The notes under the pieces are model-generated. The model saw nothing but the letters and a program-made list of their open reading frames with translations, searched no databases and was not told the origin of the DNA. A program made the position numbers and the translations under genes. Below, one piece after another: positions 1,619-14,782 of a stretch of 64,000 bases of DNA. The stretch's first letter is position 1, and each line of letters begins with the position of its first letter. The stretch spans positions 3,936,492-4,000,491 of the forward strand of contig NZ_WUTY02000001.1 in assembly GCF_009828925.2 (NCBI RefSeq). Reading direction: 5' to 3'. Source of the stretch: Methylicorpusculum oleiharenae (lineage in GTDB: Bacteria > Pseudomonadota > Gammaproteobacteria > Methylococcales > Methylomonadaceae).

Positions 1619-1815
1619 GCAGCGGCGTCATCCCGGCAGGAATTGCCGGAGCCGTTAGACCGCGTAAGCGAATTCAGTGCACAAGGACGTGCTACAGCCT
1701 TTGCCATCCATGGCTTCTGGGTTCCTGCAATCCCTGCCTGAACGACGGCAACTATTAAGGCAAACATGGTTCTCTGACAAGCCTGGACAACCTTATAAAA
1801 ACTGGGAAACTTCAG
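1619..1815. repeat. Dispersed repeat, family 3, copy A
   Basis: Read on the minus strand it starts CTGAAGTTTCCC, passes through TTAATAGTTGCCGTCGTT and then a block with AAGCCATGGATGGCAAAG and GTAGCACGTCCTTGTGCACT. The same order is found at 39823-40016, and the first part at 6026-6146. It fills most of the gap 1541-1857, in which I see no gene. Confidence 0.7.
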
Positions 1816-1857
1816 ATTTATAATCAAGTCAGTTTTTTTGATTTTGTGCCCTCCCCT

Positions 1858-2091
1858 TCAACTTTTATCCTGCGTCCACTCGGTGTTGACAAACAGCGAC
1901 TCCACTTTTTGTCTTGCCCAAGGCGTCTTGCGCAAAAACGTGAGGCTGGATGCAACGCTTGGATTACTGGTGAAACATTTGATGTTGATTAGACTGCCTA
2001 ATTCTTCCCAGCCGTAATGCTCGACCAAGCGGGTAACGACCCTTTCCAGAGTAACGCCGTGCAGTGGATCGGTAATCTCGGACTTAGGCAT
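1858..2091 (-). CDS. VF530-type small DNA-binding protein (DUF2132)
   Basis: The 77-residue product begins [16 protein letters not shown] and contains [11 protein letters not shown] and [12 protein letters not shown] followed by FLRKTPWAR, the signature of the VF530/DUF2132 family. That family is named for a small Vibrio protein with a structure resembling DNA-binding domains; no pathway is established. The ATG at 2089-2091 lies inside the end of the upstream RRM gene (8-bp overlap), so the two are probably translationally coupled. Longer in-frame versions would run antisense-like through the RRM gene and are rejected. Confidence 0.8.
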
Positions 2092-2365
2092 TGGACGGGG
2101 ATTTTCCAGGTTTGCTGTCATCCTTTTTGGGCTCGGCTTTTTTAACGCGTATCTTGTTACCGGCGACATTTTTGCCGTTAAGAACAAGAACGGCCGCTTT
2201 GGCTTCACCCGGATTAGGCATTTCAACATAGCCAAACCCTTTGGACAAATGGGTTTCTTTATCTTTAACCAGGGTACAAGATTGGACTTTACCGTGAGCC
2301 TGGAACATGACCAGCAGTTCGGCTTCTGTTGTGGAACGTGCAAGATTGCGGATTAATAATTTCAT
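2084..2365 (-). CDS. RRM-domain RNA-binding protein
   Basis: The 93-residue protein is a single RNA recognition motif plus a basic tail. RNP2 is visible as KLLIRNL at residues 2-8 and RNP1 as KGFGYVEM at about residues 42-49. The C-terminus is rich in Lys, Asp and Ser. Proteins of this size and layout are the bacterial single-RRM proteins, thought to bind single-stranded RNA; targets are unknown. It is the first gene of a two-gene unit with the VF530-type protein. Confidence 0.88.
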
Positions 2366-2496
2366 GTATTCAATTCGTTAGGGTGGAGAGCTGCACTATA
2401 CAGTTTCTGAATCAATCATTCACTTCTAATGATACGACCTGAATCGATTCAAAACAGCTCACTGATGTTATTAAGAACTGCTGCGTCGACCCCCTG

Positions 2497-3186
2497 CTAT
2501 TCGTTGAGTGTGATGACCTTGCGTAAGCCTTGATGATCGAGTACTTCTACCGTTTTACCGTTGACGCTAATCAGTTGCTGCCTTATCAACTGCTGAAGTA
2601 TGCGTGAAAATGTTTCAGGCCTTACGGACAGCCGGGAAGCCAGCACCTGTTTAGGCGTGTCCCATTCAAGGGTATAGCGATCCGGCTGGCCGGGTGGTGC
2701 TGATTGTAACAAAAACTGAATCACGCGAACGCTGGCGTTTTGTAAGGTCAACTGATCAATTTCCTTGATGGCGTTGTGCAAGCGCCGACTCATATCACCG
2801 AGCATGTGCAAACAGAGCTCATTGGATTCCTGTAAAAACCCCAGAAATACACTCATGTCGATCATCCATAATTGACTGTCGCGAACCGTTTTTGCGCCGA
2901 CCGGGAATTGATTATGTTTAAAAAACATAACCGCTTCTGCAAACGTTTGACCCGCTTGAATAAGATCAATGACTTTTTCTTCGCCCGCGGGTGATAACCG
3001 GTACAGTTGAACCAACCCCTGCTGTAACCAAAAAAAATGGCGGGCGACATCGCCACAATGAAATAAATGCTCACCTTCTTTAACTTCAAGCAGACGAGCC
3101 GTCTCCCGAATTTGTTCAAATTGTTCATCGTTTAATCCGGCAAATAAAAAATTACGCCGTAAATCATTCAGACCTTGTTCATTCAT
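2497..3186 (-). CDS. Crp/Fnr-family regulator, Dnr/NnrR-like
   Basis: The 229-residue protein has an N-terminal cyclic-nucleotide-binding fold (about residues 15-130), a long dimerisation helix and a C-terminal winged helix (TPKQVLASRLSVRPETFSRI, about 174-193). The N-terminal cysteine cluster needed for the FNR iron-sulfur centre is absent, so oxygen sensing like classical FNR is unlikely. This pattern, together with norCB 700 bp away on the other strand, points to the Dnr/NnrR group, which responds to nitric oxide, in known members through heme. A perfect FNR/DNR box sits 12 bp before the ATG. Assignment as NO-responsive is inference from context. Confidence 0.8.
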   Translation of the reverse strand: MNEQGLNDLRRNFLFAGLNDEQFEQIRETARLLEVKEGEHLFHCGDVARHFFWLQQGLVQLYRLSPAGEEKVIDLIQAGQTFAEAVMFFKHNQFPVGAKTVRDSQLWMIDMSVFLGFLQESNELCLHMLGDMSRRLHNAIKEIDQLTLQNASVRVIQFLLQSAPPGQPDRYTLEWDTPKQVLASRLSVRPETFSRILQQLIRQQLISVNGKTVEVLDHQGLRKVITLNE

Positions 3187-3197
3187 TTGAAACTCAC

Positions 3198-3211
3198 TTG
3201 ATTTAGATCAA
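3198..3211. promoter_or_regulatory. FNR/DNR box TTGATTTAGATCAA
   Basis: A perfect TTGAT-N4-ATCAA palindrome, the consensus for FNR and Dnr proteins. Its inner edge is only 11 bases from the regulator's start codon, so it lies in the leader or over the transcription start of that gene, which favours autoregulation by repression. It is about 280 bp from the nor-side genes, too far for ordinary class II activation unless their leader is long. The rest of the gap up to 3487 also holds an inverted pair CGTTGA / TCAACG at 3321-3339; its arms are 7 bases apart rather than the spacing expected for this box. Confidence 0.75.
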
Positions 3212-3487
3212 GGACAATGTAACCGCAGGGCCGTTATTCTGACAATTAAAAGATGGTCAGCCTTAATCAGAGGCCTAGCAAAGTGATGCTGGATTGGTTG
3301 AAGATACTGTTCGCGTTAGTCGTTGAAAGGGCGTCAACGCCGTCATTAAGAAGTACGTACGTATTAGTACGCATAGTTTTTTCAAATTGACTTCTTATAA
3401 TCAACCGAACGGTGCAAAACCATTTCAACAAGCCGCAAAAAATCGAATCCACTTCCTAACCATGGCTCAGGCCGGGAGATTCATCCA

Positions 3488-3808
3488 GTGATGCTCGAAC
3501 CTGTTGCACTTAAAGATTTTTTTATTACTTTTTTTTCATCGGCCCTGGTCATTCTGGCGGGAGCGAGTTACGCCCTGCTCTATGCCTGGTCGCATCTTTC
3601 ACAAAAAAGGACTTACAGACTCTTGTCCTATCTTGCGTATGCCGTATTAGTGATTGCCGTCGTGGTGTTAAGTCGGGCAGCCAATTTTTCAGGGTATTGG
3701 TTACTGATTTCAGTAGCGATGCTCGTGGGTTATTTTTTTGCACCGATCGGCATTTGGCATCTTTGCATTAAAACGCACCCGTCTGAACAAGCACCGGCCG
3801 ATCGATAA
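3488..3808 (+). CDS. Small membrane protein upstream of norC
   Basis: About 106 residues with three hydrophobic segments (roughly residues 10-30, 43-62 and 70-92) and a short hydrophilic tail. GTG at 3488 and ATG at 3491 are both possible; GGGAG at 3474-3478 is better spaced for the GTG. I do not recognise the family. It lies 82 bp before norC on the same strand and is probably co-transcribed, so a role in assembly or stability of the nitric oxide reductase, or in handling its haem or iron, can be proposed only from position. Confidence 0.7.
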   Translation: MMLEPVALKDFFITFFSSALVILAGASYALLYAWSHLSQKRTYRLLSYLAYAVLVIAVVVLSRAANFSGYWLLISVAMLVGYFFAPIGIWHLCIKTHPSEQAPADR

Positions 3809-3890
3809 CTATTTAGCCCAGCAAAAACGTGTTTGTTAGCAACCGCCTTAATACCTTCACCACCAATCTAACCCTACAGGAGAACATCCG

Positions 3891-4490
3891 ATGACTGAAA
3901 CCCCACCCCTTTGGGCCTCAGAGTCATTCTGGAAAAAAACGGCCATCTGGGTCACTGCAGGATCATTTTTGATTCTGGTTGTTTTGACCTTTGATTCTTT
4001 AAGTCAAACTACGGCCGGCAGCAAGCGTGTGCCCGGCTATGCCGTAATCAATAAGAAAATTGATTACCGCTTTGATAAAGCGGTTAACAAGTTTATGCCG
4101 GTCATAGGCGATGATGAGTTGCTGTTCGGTCAAGCCTTGTCTGAAGAGGACGCCAAAGCCTTGGTCGACTTGGGCAAAAAAACCGTGCAATCCAAAAACT
4201 GCATGAACTGTCACACCTTGTTGGGCAACGGGGCTTACTATGCACCCGATCTGACCAAAGCCTGGCTGGATCAGGGCTGGGTATCGCCAGAACTGCGCGA
4301 GGACCTCATGGTCAAGTTTCTGATGGATCCCGAAAAAAACGCCAGGACCTTCGGCAGTAACCGGAAAATGCCGAATCTTAAAATTACCGAAACGGAAGCA
4401 AAAGGCATCGTGGCCTTTTTAAAGTGGATGTCCAGCATCGACACCAACGGCTTTCCATATAACTTTAAAACCATTGAAGCAGAGGAGTGA
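3891..4490 (+). CDS. norC: Nitric oxide reductase, cytochrome c subunit
   Basis: NorC carries electrons from periplasmic donors to NorB. This 199-residue protein has one N-terminal membrane anchor (about residues 17-36), the c-type haem site CMNCH at 104-108, the family sequence LLGNGAYYAPDLTKAW just after it, and a probable distal haem ligand Met160 in RKMPNLK. Typical NorC proteins are about 150 residues with the haem site near residue 60, so about 40 residues are added between the anchor and the haem domain. AGGAG at 3878-3882 supports the ATG. The stop codon lies 3 bases before the norB ATG, so the two form an operon. Confidence 0.93.
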   Translation: MTETPPLWASESFWKKTAIWVTAGSFLILVVLTFDSLSQTTAGSKRVPGYAVINKKIDYRFDKAVNKFMPVIGDDELLFGQALSEEDAKALVDLGKKTVQSKNCMNCHTLLGNGAYYAPDLTKAWLDQGWVSPELREDLMVKFLMDPEKNARTFGSNRKMPNLKITETEAKGIVAFLKWMSSIDTNGFPYNFKTIEAEE

Positions 4491-4492
4491 TC

Positions 4493-6004
4493 ATGAGCAC
4501 AGAAGGATCAGAAGCGGTCATTCAACATACCTCGGGGTGGCTTGATAAAGCACGTACCCAATGGCAGAATTTCAATACCTGGCTGGAACTGGACAGCAGT
4601 CATTTAAGCCCGGGCAGGCAGCTATCGGTCAAATACTTTACCGTGGCCGTCATCCTGTTTTTTGCGCAAATCCTATTTGGATTACTGGCGGCAACACAAT
4701 TTCTAGCACCTGGATTTTTGTACGAAATTTTGGATTTCAGCGTCAACCGGATGGTGCATATCAATGCCATGGTGGTATGGATGCTCTATGGTTTTATAGG
4801 CTGTGTCTACTGGCTGCTGGAAGAAGAAAGCGGCACCGAGATCGTCGGATTAAAACTCGGCAATATCGCATTTTGGGTACTCACCTCAGCCGTCACGCTG
4901 GTTGTCCTGGTTTATTTGCTGGTACAGATCGGTCCCGGCAAAGATTCCAGTCTCTGGCTGATCAACGAGGGCCGCGAGTACATTGAAGCACCAAGATGGG
5001 CTGATATCGGCATCGTCGTCGTTATTTTGATCTTTTTCTATAACGTGGTGGCAACTTTCAGCAAAGGCAAATGGTCCGGCATCGCCGGGGTATTGACCCT
5101 GGACTTGATTGCGCTGGCCGGTCTTTATGTCGCGGGCATGTTTTATATGACCAACATTACTCATGACCAGTACTGGTGGTGGTGGGTTATTCACTTATGG
5201 GTTGAAGCAACCTGGGAAGTGCTGGTTGGCGTTATCATGGCCTGGTCGTTGATGAAGCTGTTGGGCGTAAAGCGCAAGATTGTCGAGATCTGGCTCTATA
5301 TTGAAGTCGCATTGATGTTCGGCTCCGGTATTCTCGGACTGGGGCATCATTATTTCTGGATAGGCACGCCGGAATACTGGCTGACCATAGGCGGCTTTTT
5401 CTCAGCGCTGGAACCGATTCCTCTGGTGGCAATGGTCGTCCATGCGCTTTATGACGCCGGTACGCATTCGTTTAAAAACAGCAATCATCCTGCGGTTGCC
5501 TGGATCATAGCCCAAGCGTTCGGAAATTTTTTCGGTGCCGGTGTCTGGGGTTTCATGCATACCCTGCCGCAAATCAATTTGTATACGCACGGAACACAAT
5601 GGTCCGCATCGCATGGCCATCTGGCATTTTTTGGTGCGTATGCAACGATCAATATCGCTTTTTTCTATCTGGCAATCCAGCATTGGCGGGGTAATGTCTG
5701 GATGGGCGGCGGCATGGTCAATAACTGGCGCTGGAAATGGGCGTTAGGCTTGTTAAACGCCGGCGTACTGGGCATGACGATTGCGTTATTGATTGCAGGC
5801 TATGAACAATCGTTTATCGAACGTGCAGTGGGCGGTTCGACATGGGGCGGTTACTTCGATGCTCAAAATCATCCTGCGTTTGTCAGTGCAATGGCGTGGC
5901 GGTTATTTTTCGGACTGGTCACCGCAGCAGGCTTTGTTCTGCTGGTCTGGGATTTGATGACCATAGGCAAAACGGAAACCCGGAAAGCCCAAGTCATTGA
6001 GTAA
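4493..6004 (+). CDS. norB: Nitric oxide reductase, catalytic subunit
   Basis: NorB is the membrane subunit that reduces two NO to N2O at a haem b3/non-haem iron centre. The 503-residue protein has about a dozen membrane helices. Diagnostic sites are visible: HINAMVVWMLYGFIG for the helix with a low-spin haem ligand, HLWVEATWE carrying the metal-site His and the conserved glutamates, LGLGHHYFW with the paired histidines, and SHGHLAFFGAYA for the haem-ligand helix. There is no N-terminal quinol-binding extension, so this is the cytochrome-c-dependent type, in agreement with the adjacent norC. ATG 4493 is preferred to GTG 4487 because the latter lies inside the ribosome-binding sequence AGAGGAG. 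Confidence 0.95.
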   Translation: MSTEGSEAVIQHTSGWLDKARTQWQNFNTWLELDSSHLSPGRQLSVKYFTVAVILFFAQILFGLLAATQFLAPGFLYEILDFSVNRMVHINAMVVWMLYGFIGCVYWLLEEESGTEIVGLKLGNIAFWVLTSAVTLVVLVYLLVQIGPGKDSSLWLINEGREYIEAPRWADIGIVVVILIFFYNVVATFSKGKWSGIAGVLTLDLIALAGLYVAGMFYMTNITHDQYWWWWVIHLWVEATWEVLVGVIMAWSLMKLLGVKRKIVEIWLYIEVALMFGSGILGLGHHYFWIGTPEYWLTIGGFFSALEPIPLVAMVVHALYDAGTHSFKNSNHPAVAWIIAQAFGNFFGAGVWGFMHTLPQINLYTHGTQWSASHGHLAFFGAYATINIAFFYLAIQHWRGNVWMGGGMVNNWRWKWALGLLNAGVLGMTIALLIAGYEQSFIERAVGGSTWGGYFDAQNHPAFVSAMAWRLFFGLVTAAGFVLLVWDLMTIGKTETRKAQVIE

Positions 6005-8039: not shown

Positions 8040-8097
8040 GGTATAACCAGAAGGACTAAAACAACCATTCACTATTGAACAACAGCGCATGAGTTGC

Positions 8098-8107
8098 TGA
8101 TTAACAG
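8098..8107. other. Left attachment core (att)
   Basis: TGATTAACAG, identical to 14773-14782. The right copy is the anticodon-loop edge of the tRNA-Asn fragment, the usual crossover place for tyrosine integrases. The left copy is not within a tRNA. Confidence 0.65.
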
Positions 8108-8199
8108 GTAACTGGGTCTTAATTTAATTTTAACGATTAAGCTGATATTGCTGAGCAAGGCATTAACAGTCCCATGAAGTCAATAAACCGTAAATTATC

Positions 8200-8308
8200 A
8201 CAACAAATAACAATAGATAATTCAATACTTTGTCTATTTTGTTAGTTGTGGTTTGCTGTTAATAATTGCCCTTATTTTCTGGCAAGTGTCCCGCCAGTGT
8301 CCCATGGG
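8200..8308. repeat. Left-end candidate integrase arm sites
   Basis: Two sequences recur in the same orientation near the other end. ACAACAAATAACAAT at 8200-8214 matches 14430-14444. The motif GTGTCCCG-N2-AGTGTCCCATGGG at 8286-8308 matches 14672-14694. Here the second is extended to a palindrome, GTGTCCCATGGGACAC. Positions 90-200 bp inside the attachment core suit integrase arm-type or excisionase sites. Apart from these, 8108-8470 shows no gene. Confidence 0.5.
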
Positions 8309-8470
8309 ACACTAAAGTTTTGAAAAAATGTTATGCGGGGTAGTGCTTCATTTGGTTGACAATCGCCTATTACATTAATCATGCCAGCCTGTAGGCCTTG
8401 ATATTATTAGGTTTTAGCGTCTTGGCATGGTTTATAGCTAGGGAATTGATTGTTTACTAAATATTGCACA

Positions 8471-8896
8471 TCACAGCGCCTCAAAAGCCGCATCTTCAGC
8501 GTCATATTGCTCAATCTGCTTGATACCTGCCGCACCTCTCGGACTCAATCCAAACTTGTTACTTAATGTCACAAATTGCCGGTGTGCTTCGTTGTGAAGT
8601 TGCGCCAATGGGTGAGGCTTTAATAAATCGCCGTTTCTGCCGCCCTCGGTTTTGAAAGTCCAACCCTCAGCATCAAGTTGTTGTCTGAATTTCAAAAGCC
8701 TGGGCCGCAATTCGCACAGCTCGCCAAAGAGTTCTGCATAGTCTCCATTTAACCGGCCACTTGCAACGCAACCCGGTGCCCACTTATCCCAAATCTTTGA
8801 CGCATCACCTGTTAGCCAATCCGGTTTAATGCGCTCGGATGTCAAGGCGTCATCGTCACTAAATGATTGATAGGGTGTTTTCTTTGATGTAGTCAT
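8471..8896 (-). CDS. Phage terminase small subunit, P27 family
   Basis: Small terminase subunits recognise the packaging site on phage DNA. The 141-residue protein has the P27-family layout: an N-terminal segment with IWDKWAPGCVASGRL, a middle helix with ELCELRPRLLKFRQQL, and the conserved end HPLAQLHNEAHRQFVTLSNK followed by FGLSPRGAAGI. No large terminase is next to it, which is normal for satellites that redirect a helper phage's packaging machine and abnormal for a full phage. It is the last gene of the element. A GAGAG sequence before the ATG supports the start. Confidence 0.85.
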   Translation of the reverse strand: MTTSKKTPYQSFSDDDALTSERIKPDWLTGDASKIWDKWAPGCVASGRLNGDYAELFGELCELRPRLLKFRQQLDAEGWTFKTEGGRNGDLLKPHPLAQLHNEAHRQFVTLSNKFGLSPRGAAGIKQIEQYDAEDAAFEAL

Positions 8897-9048
8897 TTTT
8901 TATCTCTCGGTTTGTTGTTAAAAATCTATTGGGTTTTTTCCCCTAAACGCATAAGCCGCGTGGAAAGAGTTTCGGGCGTGGTCAGGATAAAACAACTCTT
9001 TGATTTTTTACCCTGGTAGGGGGGGTATAGCCCCTGTCATTCTCAAAT

Positions 9049-9064
9049 CGGACACGCGTGTCCG
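9049..9064. promoter_or_regulatory. Perfect 16-bp palindrome CGGACACGCGTGTCCG
   Basis: A perfect palindrome between the primase and terminase genes of the element, followed on the plus strand by TTTTT. On the minus strand, the direction of the element's genes, it lacks a good T-run, so an operator for a repressor or activator of the terminase gene is as likely as a terminator. It lies about 150 bp upstream of the terminase start. Confidence 0.45.
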
Positions 9065-9116
9065 TTTTTAATCTTTCCATCGTGTAACGATTTAATCTTG
9101 TTCCGTTCTGCTTTCA

Positions 9117-9357
9117 ATTCAGTAAAAAATTTCCCTGGAATTGCTAGAGTGCCAACCTACTAAACCTACAAAAATAATTCTGTAGTTTTTGTAGGTTCAT
9201 GCTCTAGGGATTTACAGGAAAAAATATCGTTCTCTCATTCTGCTATTCAGTAAAAAATTTTCCCTGGAATGTGCCTAGTAGCAACCCGCTAAAATGGCTA
9301 AAATAATTTAGCGGTTTTAGCTGGTTCATACTCTAGGGTTTTACGGGGAAAAACGGG
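9117..9357. repeat. Two homologous hairpin units, candidate replication origin
   Basis: Two units of about 110 bp start about 128 bp apart. Each opens with TCAGTAAAAAATTT(T)CCCTGGAAT and closes with GGTTCAT(A/G)CTCTAGGG followed by TTTAC and a G/A-rich run. Each centre is a hairpin. Unit 1 pairs AACCTACAAAAA with TTTTTGTAGGTT. Unit 2 pairs AACC, GCTAAAA and GCTAAA with TTTAGC, TTTTAGC and GGTT, and contains the last codons of the DUF3987 gene. Related motifs recur at 14521-14635. Iterons just after a replication gene resemble satellite replication origins; function here is inferred. Confidence 0.5.
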
Positions 9358-11526
9358 GTGAATATGATATTCCGGTAAAGGGGGCCGCCCTCTGCTTCCT
9401 GTCATCGGTTTGCGTATCACCACTAACCAATTTTCTTCAATCAAAACATTACAAGCCGCCTCGATTTCCTCTTTATCCTTCAGCCCATGCCAGCCTTTGT
9501 CATAAACATGTTTCCGGGTAAACGGACTAGGCAAGGCTTTTGCCCGTATCTTTTCAGCCAGCCTTAAAGCCGCTTCATGCTCGGGACTTTGAGCCATGGC
9601 ATAAACTCGCCGCGCGTGACTTTCCAGATACTTGCACCATTCAGCCGCCAGCAATGCCGCCCGCTCTGTAACCGGGCCGGGGGCTTTGCCGTCTGCAACC
9701 TCAACCAGATGGAATATAACGGCAAGGCTAGGCATCAAAGAACCGTACTTTCCAAGGTGTTCAATCATTACCGGGTGTTCATCGCCTCGAATCTTTACGG
9801 TTTGCAATTCAGTCAGCCAGCTATTGAAAACAGCTTGCCCGGCATCGTCGAATCTAAAAAATGGCCGGTCGTCATCGTCCCCTTGATTAGCTCCATATCT
9901 GGTAAAATCAATTTCAGCCAATACTTTAAAAATGTCATAAACTCGATTCTTTGCGGCATTGTCTGGCTTGGTGTCTACCAGCTCCCAGGTTTCAGGTTCA
10001 TCAGGCCAGACGGCTAACTGTAGGCGTTGAACTAAGCCATCGTTAAGCCCCTTCATTGCTTGATATAAATAAATCTTTAGCTTATCCGGCTGTATGCCTC
10101 CCAGTAACGATATGCAAACGTTTGGACAGTCAGTTAAGCCCCTGCCGATTTTGTTATCGGTATAACTGCCATATCCATTAAATCCCGTCATGAAGTAGGT
10201 TCTTTCGTCCGAATGTTCTTCCCGCTCCCATCGTGCAAGTAAGCCGGTGAGTTCATCCCGGAAAAACAGTAAGCCCCTCGGGTTTTGGTTCTGTAAAACA
10301 GTCATTGACTGTATGCTGGTTTCATTCGTCTTGAATTGCCGCCTAACTGGTTCGGGTGGTGTTTTTTCTTTCAGGCTTAGGTAATCCGCTTCCAGTTTTG
10401 CCATTTCTTCATCCGAAATAACGCCGTCTTTTTTCGTGCCCTTTGCCGCCTTGCTGGTTCTGGCTTTAATATCCTCTTCAACGGCTTTGTATTTAATGTG
10501 CTCAAATTCCATAGCCGCAATACCTTGCTCGAATTGCTTCGAATAATCAGCTTGCAAACGTTCCAGGAACTGCATAGGTTCTTTCATGCTAGGCGATTTC
10601 AAGACAACCGAAGGCCTGCCGATACATGCCCCCCATAGATTCGGGACAACCTCCCAACTATCGAAGCGTTTCGGCTTGATAGAACAACCCGCGCCAATGA
10701 GCGAGCCAATAACCGTAACAAGGCTAATCGCCGCAAAGTCAGCCGGTGATTGCATACGATGACTAACATCAGCCAGCCAAGGCCGGAAAGGTTCCGGCAT
10801 TATTTCAAGCCGGAACGCATCAACCGGGGGCGTGTTGCTTTCAATTTCGCCCGGAGTTTCCCAGATAAAGCCGGTGTTATCAGCTTTGTCAGTCATGGCC
10901 CATTCTTCAGGAACGGGTTCAGCCTTTTTCAGCTCGGCTTTGAAGTCAGTAAGCGCCCATGCTTTTTCGGTGTCAGGGAATGGTTGCAAGCCGTCCCAAT
11001 CGGGGGAAAACTCTTGTAACCAGTCCACCACGTCACCGCCTTCAGGTAAGTCGGAAAGCCTAAGCAGTTTAACCTCTGGGGACTCTTCCAAGCGCATCAG
11101 GGCCGCGTAAACGTCCCGGGCATAGTGTTGCCCTGGTTCGTCGTTATCAGGCAAAATAAACACGGTTTTAAAGCTGTTTAACGGCTGCCAGCTAGACTTT
11201 AAAGCCGATTGAGAACCGCCCAAACTGGTAACCGCGCAAACGCCTAAGCTATGCAGGGCCGCCGCTGGTTTTTCACCTTCACAAATAAAAACAGCCTTGT
11301 TTTTTGGGTGAGCTGCTAACTTATCCAAGCCAAACAAGGGCCGCGGGTTTAACTCGATACCGGCCGCAAAACCGGAGCCGTTCCGCTTAAAATAGGGAAT
11401 GATTTCTTTTTTATCGCTGCCGTTCTGGTATCGGCCAACAATCCCTAAAAGTTCGCCGTCCTGGTTAAGATAATTCCAGCTCGCCTTTAATGGCTTTCCT
11501 TCAAACGTTCGGGGTATCGTGTTCAT
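9298..11526 (-). CDS. TOPRIM plus DUF3987 replication protein (primase/helicase-like)
   Basis: The 742-residue product has an N-terminal TOPRIM region (about 70-165) with acidic motifs FICEGEKPA and FILPDNDEPG, then a DUF3987 region (about 240-620) with LISLLGGIQPDKL-like sequence. This build is typical of replication proteins of phages, satellites and plasmids. The ATG at 11524-11526 overlaps the stop of the zinc-finger gene (ATGA), and the two together would reconstitute a DnaG-like zinc finger plus catalytic TOPRIM core as separate chains. The last codons fall within the hairpin repeat at 9250-9357. It probably primes replication of the element at that array. Confidence 0.82.
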   Translation of the reverse strand: MNTIPRTFEGKPLKASWNYLNQDGELLGIVGRYQNGSDKKEIIPYFKRNGSGFAAGIELNPRPLFGLDKLAAHPKNKAVFICEGEKPAAALHSLGVCAVTSLGGSQSALKSSWQPLNSFKTVFILPDNDEPGQHYARDVYAALMRLEESPEVKLLRLSDLPEGGDVVDWLQEFSPDWDGLQPFPDTEKAWALTDFKAELKKAEPVPEEWAMTDKADNTGFIWETPGEIESNTPPVDAFRLEIMPEPFRPWLADVSHRMQSPADFAAISLVTVIGSLIGAGCSIKPKRFDSWEVVPNLWGACIGRPSVVLKSPSMKEPMQFLERLQADYSKQFEQGIAAMEFEHIKYKAVEEDIKARTSKAAKGTKKDGVISDEEMAKLEADYLSLKEKTPPEPVRRQFKTNETSIQSMTVLQNQNPRGLLFFRDELTGLLARWEREEHSDERTYFMTGFNGYGSYTDNKIGRGLTDCPNVCISLLGGIQPDKLKIYLYQAMKGLNDGLVQRLQLAVWPDEPETWELVDTKPDNAAKNRVYDIFKVLAEIDFTRYGANQGDDDDRPFFRFDDAGQAVFNSWLTELQTVKIRGDEHPVMIEHLGKYGSLMPSLAVIFHLVEVADGKAPGPVTERAALLAAEWCKYLESHARRVYAMAQSPEHEAALRLAEKIRAKALPSPFTRKHVYDKGWHGLKDKEEIEAACNVLIEENWLVVIRKPMTGSRGRPPLPEYHIHPVFPRKTLEYEPAKTAKLF

Positions 11527-11879
11527 GTAAGCCCCCAATCATTAGCCAGCTTTTCCAGCGAATCAGTAAAACTTAACCCGTAACGGTTCATTGTGAAGGC
11601 GATAATATCCCCGCCAGCCGCACCACAAGCAAAACACTTATAACCGCCAGTCTCAAGGCTAACGTGAAAACTACCCTGCCTTGTATCGCTATGAAAGGGA
11701 CATAATCCCCCATTATTCCAGCCGGGCCGCTTGAACTTTGCCCCTGGTAATTCATGGCGGTAAAAGTCTATTGGCTTTAAATTTTGTTTGATATAATCAG
11801 GCCGCCGATTGATTTTGTTTTGATATATGCCGTTCCGGGTTTCGCTCGCCCGGTTCGGTTTTCGTTTTAAATAGCTCAT
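11523..11879 (-). CDS. DnaG-like CHC2 zinc-finger protein
   Basis: The 118-residue protein carries the CHC2 zinc-finger signature of bacterial primases: LCPFHSDTRQGSFHV (Cys and His ligands) and YKCFACGAAGGDIIAF (paired Cys), followed by a helix and ending LANDWGL. The zinc finger in DnaG reads the template for primer synthesis. The catalytic part is absent and is supplied, in all likelihood, by the TOPRIM protein whose start overlaps this stop by ATGA. Its own ATG overlaps the preceding gene in the same way. Confidence 0.87.
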   Translation of the reverse strand: MSYLKRKPNRASETRNGIYQNKINRRPDYIKQNLKPIDFYRHELPGAKFKRPGWNNGGLCPFHSDTRQGSFHVSLETGGYKCFACGAAGGDIIAFTMNRYGLSFTDSLEKLANDWGLT

Positions 11880-12205
11880 TCGCCCGCCTCAAATTTCTGA
11901 ACCGCATGAATGAAGTTAGTGACTCGTTCAGCTCCTAATTCAGCCTTAGCCAATCTTAAAACATCCTTTTCAATTGAATAACGCGCGTAAGTTGCTTTAC
12001 GGCCCTTATCATTTGTTGGTGAAGTTTCTTTAATTGCCTCAACCTGCCAGCCATGCCGGTTCCGAAGATTCAAGATATAACCTGAAAGTCTGTAGCTTGC
12101 TGTTTCGCTAAAAAAGTCCCTATGCGTAAATTTTTTTCCCTGTAATAGTCGCATCAATGCGCGGCCTGTTAATGTGTTGGTTTTAGGGAATGACGGCGCT
12201 CTCAT
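11876..12205 (-). CDS. Small element protein, possible winged-helix domain
   Basis: This 109-residue basic protein has sequence such as LTGRALMRLLQGKKFTHRDF, then YRLSGYILNLRNRHGW with a following EAIKE segment, which could form a helix-turn-helix with a wing. The segment YARYSIEKDVLRLAKAELG follows. Similar small proteins with a winged-helix look sit before primase genes in satellites and prophages. I cannot name the family. ATGA overlaps on both sides place it firmly in the replication operon between the AlpA-like and zinc-finger genes. Confidence 0.65.
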   Translation of the reverse strand: MRAPSFPKTNTLTGRALMRLLQGKKFTHRDFFSETASYRLSGYILNLRNRHGWQVEAIKETSPTNDKGRKATYARYSIEKDVLRLAKAELGAERVTNFIHAVQKFEAGE

Positions 12206-12438
12206 TTTGAACCGCCGTTATTCCGTTCAACACATGCGAAAAATTCAGTCTCATCAATCAGAACGCGTTTACCAACCCGCTTAAACGCAGTTTTGAACCC
12301 GTTTGTTTTTTCGTTGAATATTAAGTGACGTAAGCCGCCGATTGGGGGCCATGGGTGAAAGTCGTTCCAGTTGGTAACAGGTATTAACCGGCTTGGTTTT
12401 TGTGTAGGTTCTTGGGTGGTTTGTATCTGTGCGTTCAT
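12202..12438 (-). CDS. AlpA-like regulator/excisionase
   Basis: The 78-residue protein has the compact MerR/AlpA-like DNA-binding sequence: WPPIGGLRHLIFNEKTNGF followed by FKRVGKRVLIDETEFFACVE. In satellites such as P4 and gram-negative PICIs, AlpA proteins act as activators or as excision factors. A perfect 12-bp inverted repeat at 12499-12542 lies just before its start. The stop overlaps the next start (ATGA). Confidence 0.78.
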   Translation of the reverse strand: MNAQIQTTQEPTQKPSRLIPVTNWNDFHPWPPIGGLRHLIFNEKTNGFKTAFKRVGKRVLIDETEFFACVERNNGGSK

Positions 12439-12498
12439 AATCGCCCTTGTTCGTTATTCGCCGTCATTTACGGCTTGGGGCAATTGTTACTTGTGACT

Positions 12499-12542
12499 TT
12501 TGCGGCTAAGCTTGCATTGCAAAATGTTCTCTTAGCCGCAAA
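12499..12542. promoter_or_regulatory. Perfect 12-bp inverted repeat before the AlpA-like gene
   Basis: TTTGCGGCTAAG (12499-12510) and its exact reverse complement (12531-12542) flank a 20-base loop that holds a second small palindrome, TTGCATTGCAA. It occupies most of the only gap in the element's operon apart from the primase-terminase gap. There is no T-run in the direction of transcription, so an operator or attenuator controlling the AlpA-replication genes is favoured over a terminator. Confidence 0.55.
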
Positions 12543-12546
12543 TGTT

Positions 12547-13188
12547 TTAGATAGGTGGGTTTCTTTTCAGTCGACTAATTACGCTGTTTAAGCCCGTTTT
12601 TTTATTTCTCCGCTCAGTTCCGTAAGTTGATATCCATAAAATCTCTTGAGCCGTTACTTCTTGAATAATTTCTTCAGTGTCGTATTTTTCGTAATTTTTC
12701 TGCAATTCATTCCAAACTCGATTCACATTTGCATGCCCGTCTTTGTTAAGGGATTGCCAAACGCGCCAAATCAAAGAATGAAGCTGATGTTCTCGTTTGC
12801 TCTTGGTGGTTATTTTGGGCAAAACATCTGGCTTTTCCAGGCTCCACCAATTAAACAACAACCCATTAGGGGGCCATTGTCCGGAACTTTGAAGGAACTC
12901 TTTGTATTTTTGCCGGGTAAATCCTTTTAAAAGTCCATGCCCTTCTTGAATTTCTTGCTCTTCAAATTCAACCCCTGAAAGTCTGATTATGCTTTCTAAC
13001 GCCCCTGTGTAATGGCCGGAAAGGGTAGCAATGTCATCAATACATAAAAATTCAGGTAATAATTTATGTGTAGCCATTAATTCAAGTTCGTCTTTTTGAC
13101 GGTTACGCCATGCGCTGAATAACCGCTGTTGTTTTTCCCTTTCTTTTGGGCGAATTTCGCGCCGCTTTAAATTCTCGTCTAGCTTCAT
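12547..13188 (-). CDS. Element protein of unknown function
   Basis: The 213-residue product is highly charged at its N-terminus (KLDENLKRREIRPKEREKQQ), then has a possible helix-turn-helix near LPEFLCIDDIATLSGHYTGA and a C-terminal half rich in Trp and Glu. I recognise no family. The ATG shares one base with the integrase stop (TGATG), so it is translated with the integrase. Position between integrase and AlpA gives a weak hint towards regulation of excision or replication. Confidence 0.65.
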   Translation of the reverse strand: MKLDENLKRREIRPKEREKQQRLFSAWRNRQKDELELMATHKLLPEFLCIDDIATLSGHYTGALESIIRLSGVEFEEQEIQEGHGLLKGFTRQKYKEFLQSSGQWPPNGLLFNWWSLEKPDVLPKITTKSKREHQLHSLIWRVWQSLNKDGHANVNRVWNELQKNYEKYDTEEIIQEVTAQEILWISTYGTERRNKKTGLNSVISRLKRNPPI

Positions 13189-14255
13189 CAAGCGCCCCCG
13201 AATATCTTATCGTTCATTCGACTAACTACGCTCGAAACATGACCGTCTGATAGGTGGGCGTAACGCTTAACCATGGATAAGGTTTTGTGCCCTAAAATCT
13301 CGGATATTTCAGCCAGTGACGCGCCGCTCATGGCTAAATAAGACGCGGTGCAATGCCTTAAGTCATGCCAATGAAAATTGGTTATTTCTGCCGCTTGTAG
13401 GGCGTTCTCGAATGGCCGTCTAAGGCTTACCGGCTTATTTGCGTGAATGGTTCCAGGAAATAGTAAATCAGTATCAAGCCGCCTAACTTTGGCGTGTTGT
13501 TTCAGCAATTCAAGGCCATGGCCGGAAAGTGGAACGCGCCGCCGTTCGCCGTTCTTGGTTTCATGAAGGATAATAAAACCGTCTTTTAAGTTCACGTCCT
13601 GCCATTTCAGGCCCATTAGTTCAGCCTGTCTCATTCCAGTGCTAAGCGCCAAAATTACACACAAATAAAGTTCTTTGCTGCTAGATTCTTTGCAAGCGGC
13701 TAAAAAGCGTTCACGCTCGGCATCATCCAGGTATCTAACCCGCCCGCGTGACTCTTTAGGCTTTTTAACTTTCCGCATGGGGTTATCATCAAGCCAACCC
13801 CATTCATTAACGGCAATTGTGAAGGCGTGGCTTAGCGCTGCCATGTATCGAACCACAGTGGCCCCGCTTCGTTGTGTTCCTCGGTAGGTTTCGCCGCTGG
13901 CTAATTCGTCGCGGTATTGAACAATTAAAGCCGGGGTTATATCAGCCAGGACATAAACGCCCATTTTTTCGGCCCACCATTCAAGCTGCTGCTTTTGTTT
14001 GACGGCTTGCTTAGGTTTGCCGGGTAAAACATCCTTAACGTATCGGTTCACCATTTCGGAAAATGTATGCTTTTTGCTTTCGGCGGTTTTGAAGTGTCGA
14101 TTCTCGCGAATTGCTGATTCAGTCGAAGCGGCCCATTTGCGGGCATCAGTTAAGCGTTCGAAAGTTGCGGCTTGTGGTGGAAAGCCTTTTAACCGGACTT
14201 TTACGCGATAGCTTTTTTCCCCGGTGTCATTGGTGCGGGTTTCGATAGTTGCCAT
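13188..14255 (-). CDS. Tyrosine-type site-specific integrase
   Basis: The 355-residue protein has an N-terminal arm-binding domain (about 1-65), a SAM-like core-binding domain (about 70-155) and a C-terminal catalytic domain. Catalytic residues are visible as the Arg in STGMRQAELMGLKW, HDLRH in NFHWHDLRHCTASYL, the His in LGHKTLS, and the nucleophilic Tyr in MVKRYAHL near residue 332. It catalyses integration and excision of the element. Its start is 518 bp from the right attachment core, with paired arm-type repeats in between. GGAG before the ATG supports the start. Confidence 0.93.
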   Translation of the reverse strand: MATIETRTNDTGEKSYRVKVRLKGFPPQAATFERLTDARKWAASTESAIRENRHFKTAESKKHTFSEMVNRYVKDVLPGKPKQAVKQKQQLEWWAEKMGVYVLADITPALIVQYRDELASGETYRGTQRSGATVVRYMAALSHAFTIAVNEWGWLDDNPMRKVKKPKESRGRVRYLDDAERERFLAACKESSSKELYLCVILALSTGMRQAELMGLKWQDVNLKDGFIILHETKNGERRRVPLSGHGLELLKQHAKVRRLDTDLLFPGTIHANKPVSLRRPFENALQAAEITNFHWHDLRHCTASYLAMSGASLAEISEILGHKTLSMVKRYAHLSDGHVSSVVSRMNDKIFGGA

Positions 14256-14429
14256 GCTACTTGCTCCAATATGAAGGCAAGCAATTAGCGTTTTTTGATA
14301 AGATACGTTTAGCCATTTGCTTAACCTATGCCGTTAAGTGAATCGGTAAGGGCTTGGTGGTGTTGGTAGCACTTCCAGGCCCGTTTTTTTTGCTTCGAAA
14401 AAGATACTACAACAACCCTCGAAAATTAA

Positions 14430-14694
14430 CAACAAATAACAATCACTTGTACATTGCTGTTTTTCCCTTGATATTCAAAGCCTGAAAGTAAAACGGTTCC
14501 CCAATGGGGCAATAAAAAAGGGTTTTAGCTGGTTTAGCTGGTAGGGGGTAAGCGCATTTGAAACTTTTTTAACAGGGGTTTTAGTAGGTTTTGTAGGTAG
14601 GGGGTAGACGTATTTACAGGAAAATAAAATACCTGTAATTATTGCCGTTTATTGTGGCTTTTTTTTCCTGAGTGTCCCGTGAGTGTCCCATGGG
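14430..14694. repeat. Right-end arm sites and iteron-like repeats
   Basis: ACAACAAATAACAAT (14430-14444) and GTGTCCCGTGAGTGTCCCATGGG (14672-14694, two GTGTCCC units) match the left-end copies in the same orientation. Between them, GGTTTTAGCTGGTT at 14521-14534 is identical to 9313-9326. GGTTTTGTAGGT with GTATTTACAGGAAAA near 14588-14625 matches the other left unit. GGTAGGGGG occurs twice here and once at 9016. No gene is seen in 14256-14937. Confidence 0.55.
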
Positions 14695-14695
14695 C

Positions 14696-14726
14696 AAAAA
14701 AAAAGGCCTAGCAATTTTGCTAAGCC
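14696..14726 (-). terminator. Intrinsic terminator after the tRNA-Asn half
   Basis: On the minus strand GGCTTAGC, a six-base loop and GCTAGGCC are followed by nine T. It lies 13 bases past the CCA end of the tRNA fragment, as expected of a tRNA gene's own terminator, and so was probably picked up with the tRNA half. Confidence 0.75.
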
Positions 14727-14738
14727 CTTGTTTTGATT

Positions 14739-14782
14739 GGCTCCCCCGGACGGGCTCGAACCGCCGACCTAGTGATTAACAG
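14739..14782 (-). tRNA. Partial tRNA-Asn(GTT), 3' half only
   Basis: On the minus strand the sequence starts at the anticodon loop CTGTTAA (anticodon GTT), continues through a T arm (GGCGG-TTCGAGC-CCGTC) and ends with an acceptor strand CGGGGGA, G and CCA. The matching 5' half, which would start TCCCCCG, is absent beyond 14782. The break coincides with the attachment core. The element therefore carries the 3' half as its attP, meant to rebuild tRNA-Asn on integration, but here joined to unrelated DNA. It cannot give a working tRNA. Confidence 0.85.
14773..14782. other. Right attachment core (att)
   Basis: TGATTAACAG, identical to 8098-8107 and coinciding with the anticodon loop of the tRNA-Asn half. 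Confidence 0.65.

Follow-up and report, generated by a model that had tools for sequence, protein, structure and literature searches.

Among the genes in the window that we analysed (64,000 nucleotides of the Methylicorpusculum oleiharenae genome, G000; 5.8 Mb, 3 contigs), a short run of phage-type genes stands without virion genes beside it. This raises the question of whether the locus is a satellite that borrows the particles of another phage or what is left of a single prophage. The element, which we call element 1, extends over 6.6 kb, from 8163 to 14782, and is a genuine integrated mobile element. We hold it to be, with high confidence, an integrative phage satellite of the Gram-negative PICI/PICMI type, packaged by a helper through its own terminase small subunit (TerS). 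We infer its dependence on a helper, its induction, its replication origin and the packaging role of a 44-bp site described below.

The seven genes form one series on the minus strand, from 14255 down to 8471, as the preliminary description had stated, and this unidirectional layout is that of Gram-negative PICIs. All are intact, with operon-like overlaps (Table 1). Profile searches confirmed the earlier labels of integrase, CHC2 zinc finger, TOPRIM/DUF3987 and P27 TerS, and PHROGs agreed with the assignments of the phage-like genes. On the other hand, the 78-aa protein called AlpA-like had no family match in the profile search and no significant match in the fold search, and its label rests mainly on position and size. 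The gene at the same position in element 4, a relative described below, weakly matches the excisionase family TIGR01764 (0.086), and element 3 has HTH_17 in this place. The 109-aa product of the small ORF is probably, by its profile match, a winged-helix protein. The 214-aa protein occurs only in elements 1 and 2 among 274 genomes and gave no match in the defence-gene search; the primase has no close relatives in IMG/VR. Between 8163 and 14782 we found no capsid, portal, tail or large-terminase genes or remnants of them, including the own capsid genes that are the criterion for cf-PICIs, and no capsid-size or interference genes were recognised in the element. What it carries are genes for excising and copying itself and, probably, for steering its DNA into the shells of another phage.

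Table 1. Features of element 1, in positions of the window.
Feature	Position	Strand	Evidence or remark
att core, terS-side end	8163..8170	.	ATTAACAG = CTGTTAAT of tRNA-Asn anticodon loop
P27-type terminase small subunit (terS), no large-subunit gene after it	8471..8896	-	PF05119 3e-13
Conserved block upstream of terS	8952..9103	-	96% identical to element 3; contains 3' remnant of a small gene intact in element 3
44-bp invariant core, candidate packaging (cos/pac) site	8997..9040	-	ATGACAGGGGCTATACCCCCCCTACCAGGGTAAAAAATCAAAGA, alignment of four elements
Palindrome beside invariant core	9049..9064	.	CGGACACGCGTGTCCG; a different dyad in its stead in element 4
Two ~110-bp imperfect repeats with iteron-like motifs, candidate origin	9117..9353 (9117-9224, 9245-9353)	.	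at 3' end of primase gene
Toprim + DUF3987 primase/helicase	9298..11538	-	PF13148 7e-69, PF01751 1e-5
CHC2 zinc finger of split primase	11523..11879	-	PF01807 5e-17
109-aa probable winged-helix DNA-binding protein	11876..12205	-	HTH_91 PF22324 3e-5, just under curated cut-off
78-aa small protein, AlpA/excisionase position	12202..12438	-	32% identity to same-position gene of element 4
214-aa protein without known family, overlaps int stop codon by 1-4 nt	12547..13191	-	ORF call
Tyrosine integrase (int)	13188..14255	-	Phage_integrase PF00589 3e-33
Second set of both iteron-like motifs, between int and att site	14525..14597	+	motif search
Displaced 3' half of tRNA-Asn(GTT), carried by element	14738..14782	-	matches native tRNA-Asn at C1:4785385
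att core, int-side end	14775..14782	.	ATTAACAG

The borders differ from those proposed before. We find the 10-bp direct repeat that had been taken to bound the element, yet its left copy, at 8098, belongs to the host DNA: positions 8041-8157 are collinear with the genome of a sister species (G032), which is without the element, and this rules out a left border at 8098. That genome also supplies evidence on the empty site, not at 8098 but on both sides of the site at 8163-8170. At the place of the terS-side att core it reads AAAGGCGTTAGCAGAAAAAGG with no interruption, and its uninterrupted AAAGGCGTTAGCAGAAAAAGGTAATTC is what results when AAGGCATTAACAG of the window (8158-8170) is fused to AAAAAGGTAACTC of the right flank. 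Since G032 has about 630 bp of extra sequence between the two flank-matching stretches, the match represents the two sides of the site rather than one short empty site. In the alignment of the near-identical copies, the homology of copy 2 to element 1 stops at 8168; combined with the flank matches in G032, this end defines the core ATTAACAG at both borders. An excised circle would show the junction ...TTCATGGGACTGTTAATCACTAGG....

The right end also records where the element came from. Read on the minus strand, it gives CTGTTAATCACTAGGTCGG...GGGGGAGCCA, the 3' half of tRNA-Asn, and the 5' half is absent there, so that element 1 came from a tRNA gene and occupies a secondary site now. Judged by this displaced half, it is derived from a tRNA-Asn site, and its present position, intergenic between the DUF4136 and CTI genes, has only the anticodon-loop core in common with that gene. 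A second displaced tRNA-Asn 3' half lies outside any tRNA gene at G000:C1:4623857-4623890 (L023 ~13858). In its neighbourhood are an integrase and genes that by eye look BREX-like (PglZ/BrxL-like), and we take it to have been left by a further tRNA-Asn element at a secondary site.

Three related elements (1, 2 and 3) reside in this one genome, and none of them has capsid, portal or large-terminase genes. Element 2 (L004 3092-10320) is 95-99% identical to element 1. It lies cleanly inserted in tRNA-Leu(UAA), where 58 bp reaching from the anticodon stem to the 3' end are duplicated. That two almost identical copies occupy different att sites demonstrates the mobility of the element. Their integrases differ at 15 residues, 14 of them within the first 146, a distribution consistent with a change of site. 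Directly adjoining copy 2 (L004 10481-17700) is another island, which is headed by an integrase and contains a small ORF in the AlpA position as well as a Toprim-like one, and this tRNA-Leu has two islands in tandem. Element 3 (L005 9234-15135) is a neighbour of trmE. Its integrase is a different one, and it combines an HTH_17 protein and Toprim with a DUF3631 helicase; its P27 TerS is 41% identical to that of the window. Element 4 (L029), from the same genus, occupies tRNA-Arg(CCU) and has no terS; its integrase gene has 112 identical bases in common with that of element 1, and its replication genes are those of element 3 (87% over 3.1 kb). Elements 3 and 4 are both ordered int, orf, AlpA-position gene, Toprim, DUF3631, with TerS following in the former and absent in the latter. 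Elements 1-4 are mosaics of one satellite population, seen so far at tRNA-Leu, tRNA-Asn and tRNA-Arg, and the set shows primase, helicase and terminase modules swapped between satellites. In element 4 the place of terS (L029 10400-10592) holds a short remnant (...SQSQAAELLNVSERS...), which recurs beside the capsid gene of an island at C1:3265215 and in L106.

These relatives bear directly on the origin of the locus. In favour of a deletion remnant of a single prophage that retained int, primase and terS, both P27 TerS and primases of the Toprim type belong to families found in phages. We consider such a remnant very improbable. A near-identical copy occupies another att site, the same genus has relatives that resemble it in size and gene order, and the genes are intact with operon-like overlaps. 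Moreover, in a tree the satellite TerS proteins form their own clade (support 99/97), apart from the phage TerS. The independent copies and the separate TerS clade rule out a derivation by prophage deletion. The earlier reading of the locus as a PICI-like satellite without structural genes is thus borne out by two near-identical copies, a third mosaic relative, the empty-site evidence and the lack of a neighbouring capsid or large-terminase gene.

Such a satellite would need a large terminase (TerL) and capsids from elsewhere. In all 15 IMG/VR contigs with a related TerS, TerL adjoins it or follows after a short distance; HK97-like portal and capsid genes are present in most of these contigs, and most have HNH upstream where they extend far enough. 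In element 1, the short open stretch behind terS is unlike the starts of phage TerL genes, and we rejected the idea that the 3' end of this terS contains a vestigial TerL start. The TerS profile gave no match to solved structures. The preliminary description had proposed to look in the host for a P27-type helper prophage with a matching large terminase. PF03354, the family paired with P27 TerS and the only large-terminase family searched, had no match in the whole host genome (5.8 Mb, 3 contigs), with control searches positive in E. coli, Caulobacter and Lactococcus. The single Phage_capsid match of the genome lies in another satellite-like island, and a resident helper prophage was rejected on these two results. 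That island (G000:C1:3258624-3270000, L133/L134) contains, besides an integrase and an HK97-type Phage_capsid gene (PF05065 8e-27), a primase-like ORF with a zinc finger and further ORFs, and a large terminase was not found there; by its gene content it is possibly a capsid-forming satellite. Islands in another genome (L123 and L124 of G609) combine P27 TerS with an HK97 capsid gene and replication-type genes, with no large terminase adjacent; L123 also has an integrase, and on this content both look like capsid-forming satellites.

A candidate packaging site lies beside terS. About 155 bp upstream of terS are 96% identical between elements 1 and 3, though their TerS proteins are only 41% identical; beyond this block, conservation between the two is limited to 51 bp at the 3' end of terS. 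Part of this identity could come from recent recombination. The 44-bp core is kept in element 4 although terS is lost. Among 311 Methylococcales genomes the block is confined to this genus; a search of GenBank phages did not find the site, IMG/VR gave no exact match to it, and no such site is shared near the HNH-TerS of prophages L021 and L022. From the alignment, we regard the 44-bp invariant site as the best candidate for a packaging site.

The same block might instead be the replication origin, or the promoter or operator of terS, a reading that we find less probable than not, yet deserving of real weight. Its position 3' of the replication genes resembles that of the origins of Gram-negative PICIs, 3' of the rep gene (PMC6092414), and a palindrome adjoins the block. 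It is, however, retained in an element without terS, it is common to elements with different replication proteins (DUF3987, DUF3631), and a separate candidate origin stands next to it. The iteron-like motifs of the latter have five matches in the element against a mean of 0.04 in shuffled sequence, and further copies of the ~110-bp repeats occur in copy 2. Present at the 3' end of the primase gene as well as in the gap between int and att, they constitute a candidate origin distinct from the 44-bp site. It is also conceivable that TerS mainly interferes with the packaging of the helper, as competition or defence, rather than packaging the satellite. The element is compact and interference is frequent in PICIs (PMC6092414), but an adjacent invariant DNA site better fits a target of TerS, and we judge this role of TerS improbable.

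For the preferred reading, that of a helper-packaged satellite, the cycle would run as follows. Upon infection by a helper phage, the integrase and the AlpA-position protein, perhaps with the int-overlapping protein, would excise the element. The CHC2 protein and the Toprim/DUF3987 primase-helicase would then replicate it, starting from the iterons where the primase gene ends. Its own TerS would act on the conserved site beside terS and have the large terminase and capsid of the helper package the satellite DNA. A wider proposal, which we advance tentatively and expect to be wrong somewhat more readily than right, is that of a methanotroph satellite lineage. Its long-separate P27 TerS and private 44-bp recognition site would form an exchangeable packaging cassette, and its integrases would switch between tRNA anticodon loops (Leu, Asn, Arg), letting several satellites coexist in a cell.

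The layout is not unique. Four TerS-bearing satellites resemble element 1 in the series int, orf, AlpA-position gene, primase/helicase and TerS with no nearby TerL. Three belong to other gammaproteobacterial families: L125 (int, AlpA PF05930, Toprim/DUF3987, P27 TerS on the opposite strand), L122 (int, 64-aa ORF in AlpA position, P4-type primase, P27 TerS) and L069 (int, AlpA-position gene, Toprim, DUF3987, Terminase_2 TerS; order as in element 1). The fourth, L102, is from the host family (int, AlpA-position gene, Toprim, DUF3631, p99 homologue), and the HTH protein at its terS place is read as a different TerS type; it carries a type IIG restriction-methyltransferase as cargo (1635-5519; PADLOC 3e-122). 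In another family, L127 combines int, an AlpA-position gene, a Toprim-sized ORF, a DUF3631-type helicase and p99 beside tRNA-Leu(UAA). The search for the same design in other genomes thus succeeded with L125, with partial likeness in L122 and L069. L125 also combines Toprim/DUF3987, AlpA and P27 TerS without structural genes, published PICMIs unite int, AlpA and a DUF3987 primase (PMC10803314), and terS is known from some Gram-negative PICIs (PMC6092414). The claim that the layout was previously undescribed is thereby weakened, and in place of a new satellite group we see a local variant of the known PICI/PICMI design. HK97-like phages with HNH, P27 TerS and TerL in a row (L021, L022, L076-L090) have the same TerS family (29-38% identity) together with a packaging and head module, whereas the satellite TerS proteins stand alone in a separate clade.

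The satellites available for comparison are known from work on enterobacteria, Pasteurella, Vibrio and Gram-positive cocci (PMC6092414, PMC10803314). Here, three related satellites in the genome of one methanotroph, together with a TerS clade that stands alone and a short invariant site, offer a concrete, testable packaging signal, and suggest that undiscovered phages carry DNA between methane-consuming bacteria. Gram-negative PICIs such as EcCI and PmCI (Fillol-Salom et al. 2018, PMC6092414) have their genes in one direction, with int, alpA, pri-rep and a 3' origin in which two iteron sets flank an AT-rich region, and with terS in some. Element 1 is like them in this one-way series from int through an AlpA-position gene and primase/rep to iteron-like repeats, in the optional terS and in having no structural genes. 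It differs in its Methylococcales host, in having no recognised interference or capsid-size genes and in an AlpA-position protein that profiles do not recognise; its own TerS is of the P27 type. PICMIs of Vibrionaceae consist of int, an int-overlapping gene, alpA, at least one small gene and a DUF3987 primase (DUF3987 or DUF5906 by their criterion), with no terS, and have as their hallmark the fis site, with at most one element per genome (PMC10803314). Element 1 matches them in size (~6 kb), in int, the DUF3987 primase, an alpA-position gene that profiles do not recognise and an extra small gene, and in the order of these, and its int-overlapping 214-aa gene parallels their iolg. On the other hand, it has terS, its sites are tRNA-derived rather than adjacent to fis, and three related elements share one genome. 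Element 1 combines the gene order of a PICMI with a PICI-like terS while departing from PICMIs in two of their defining traits, and is a PICI/PICMI-like satellite.
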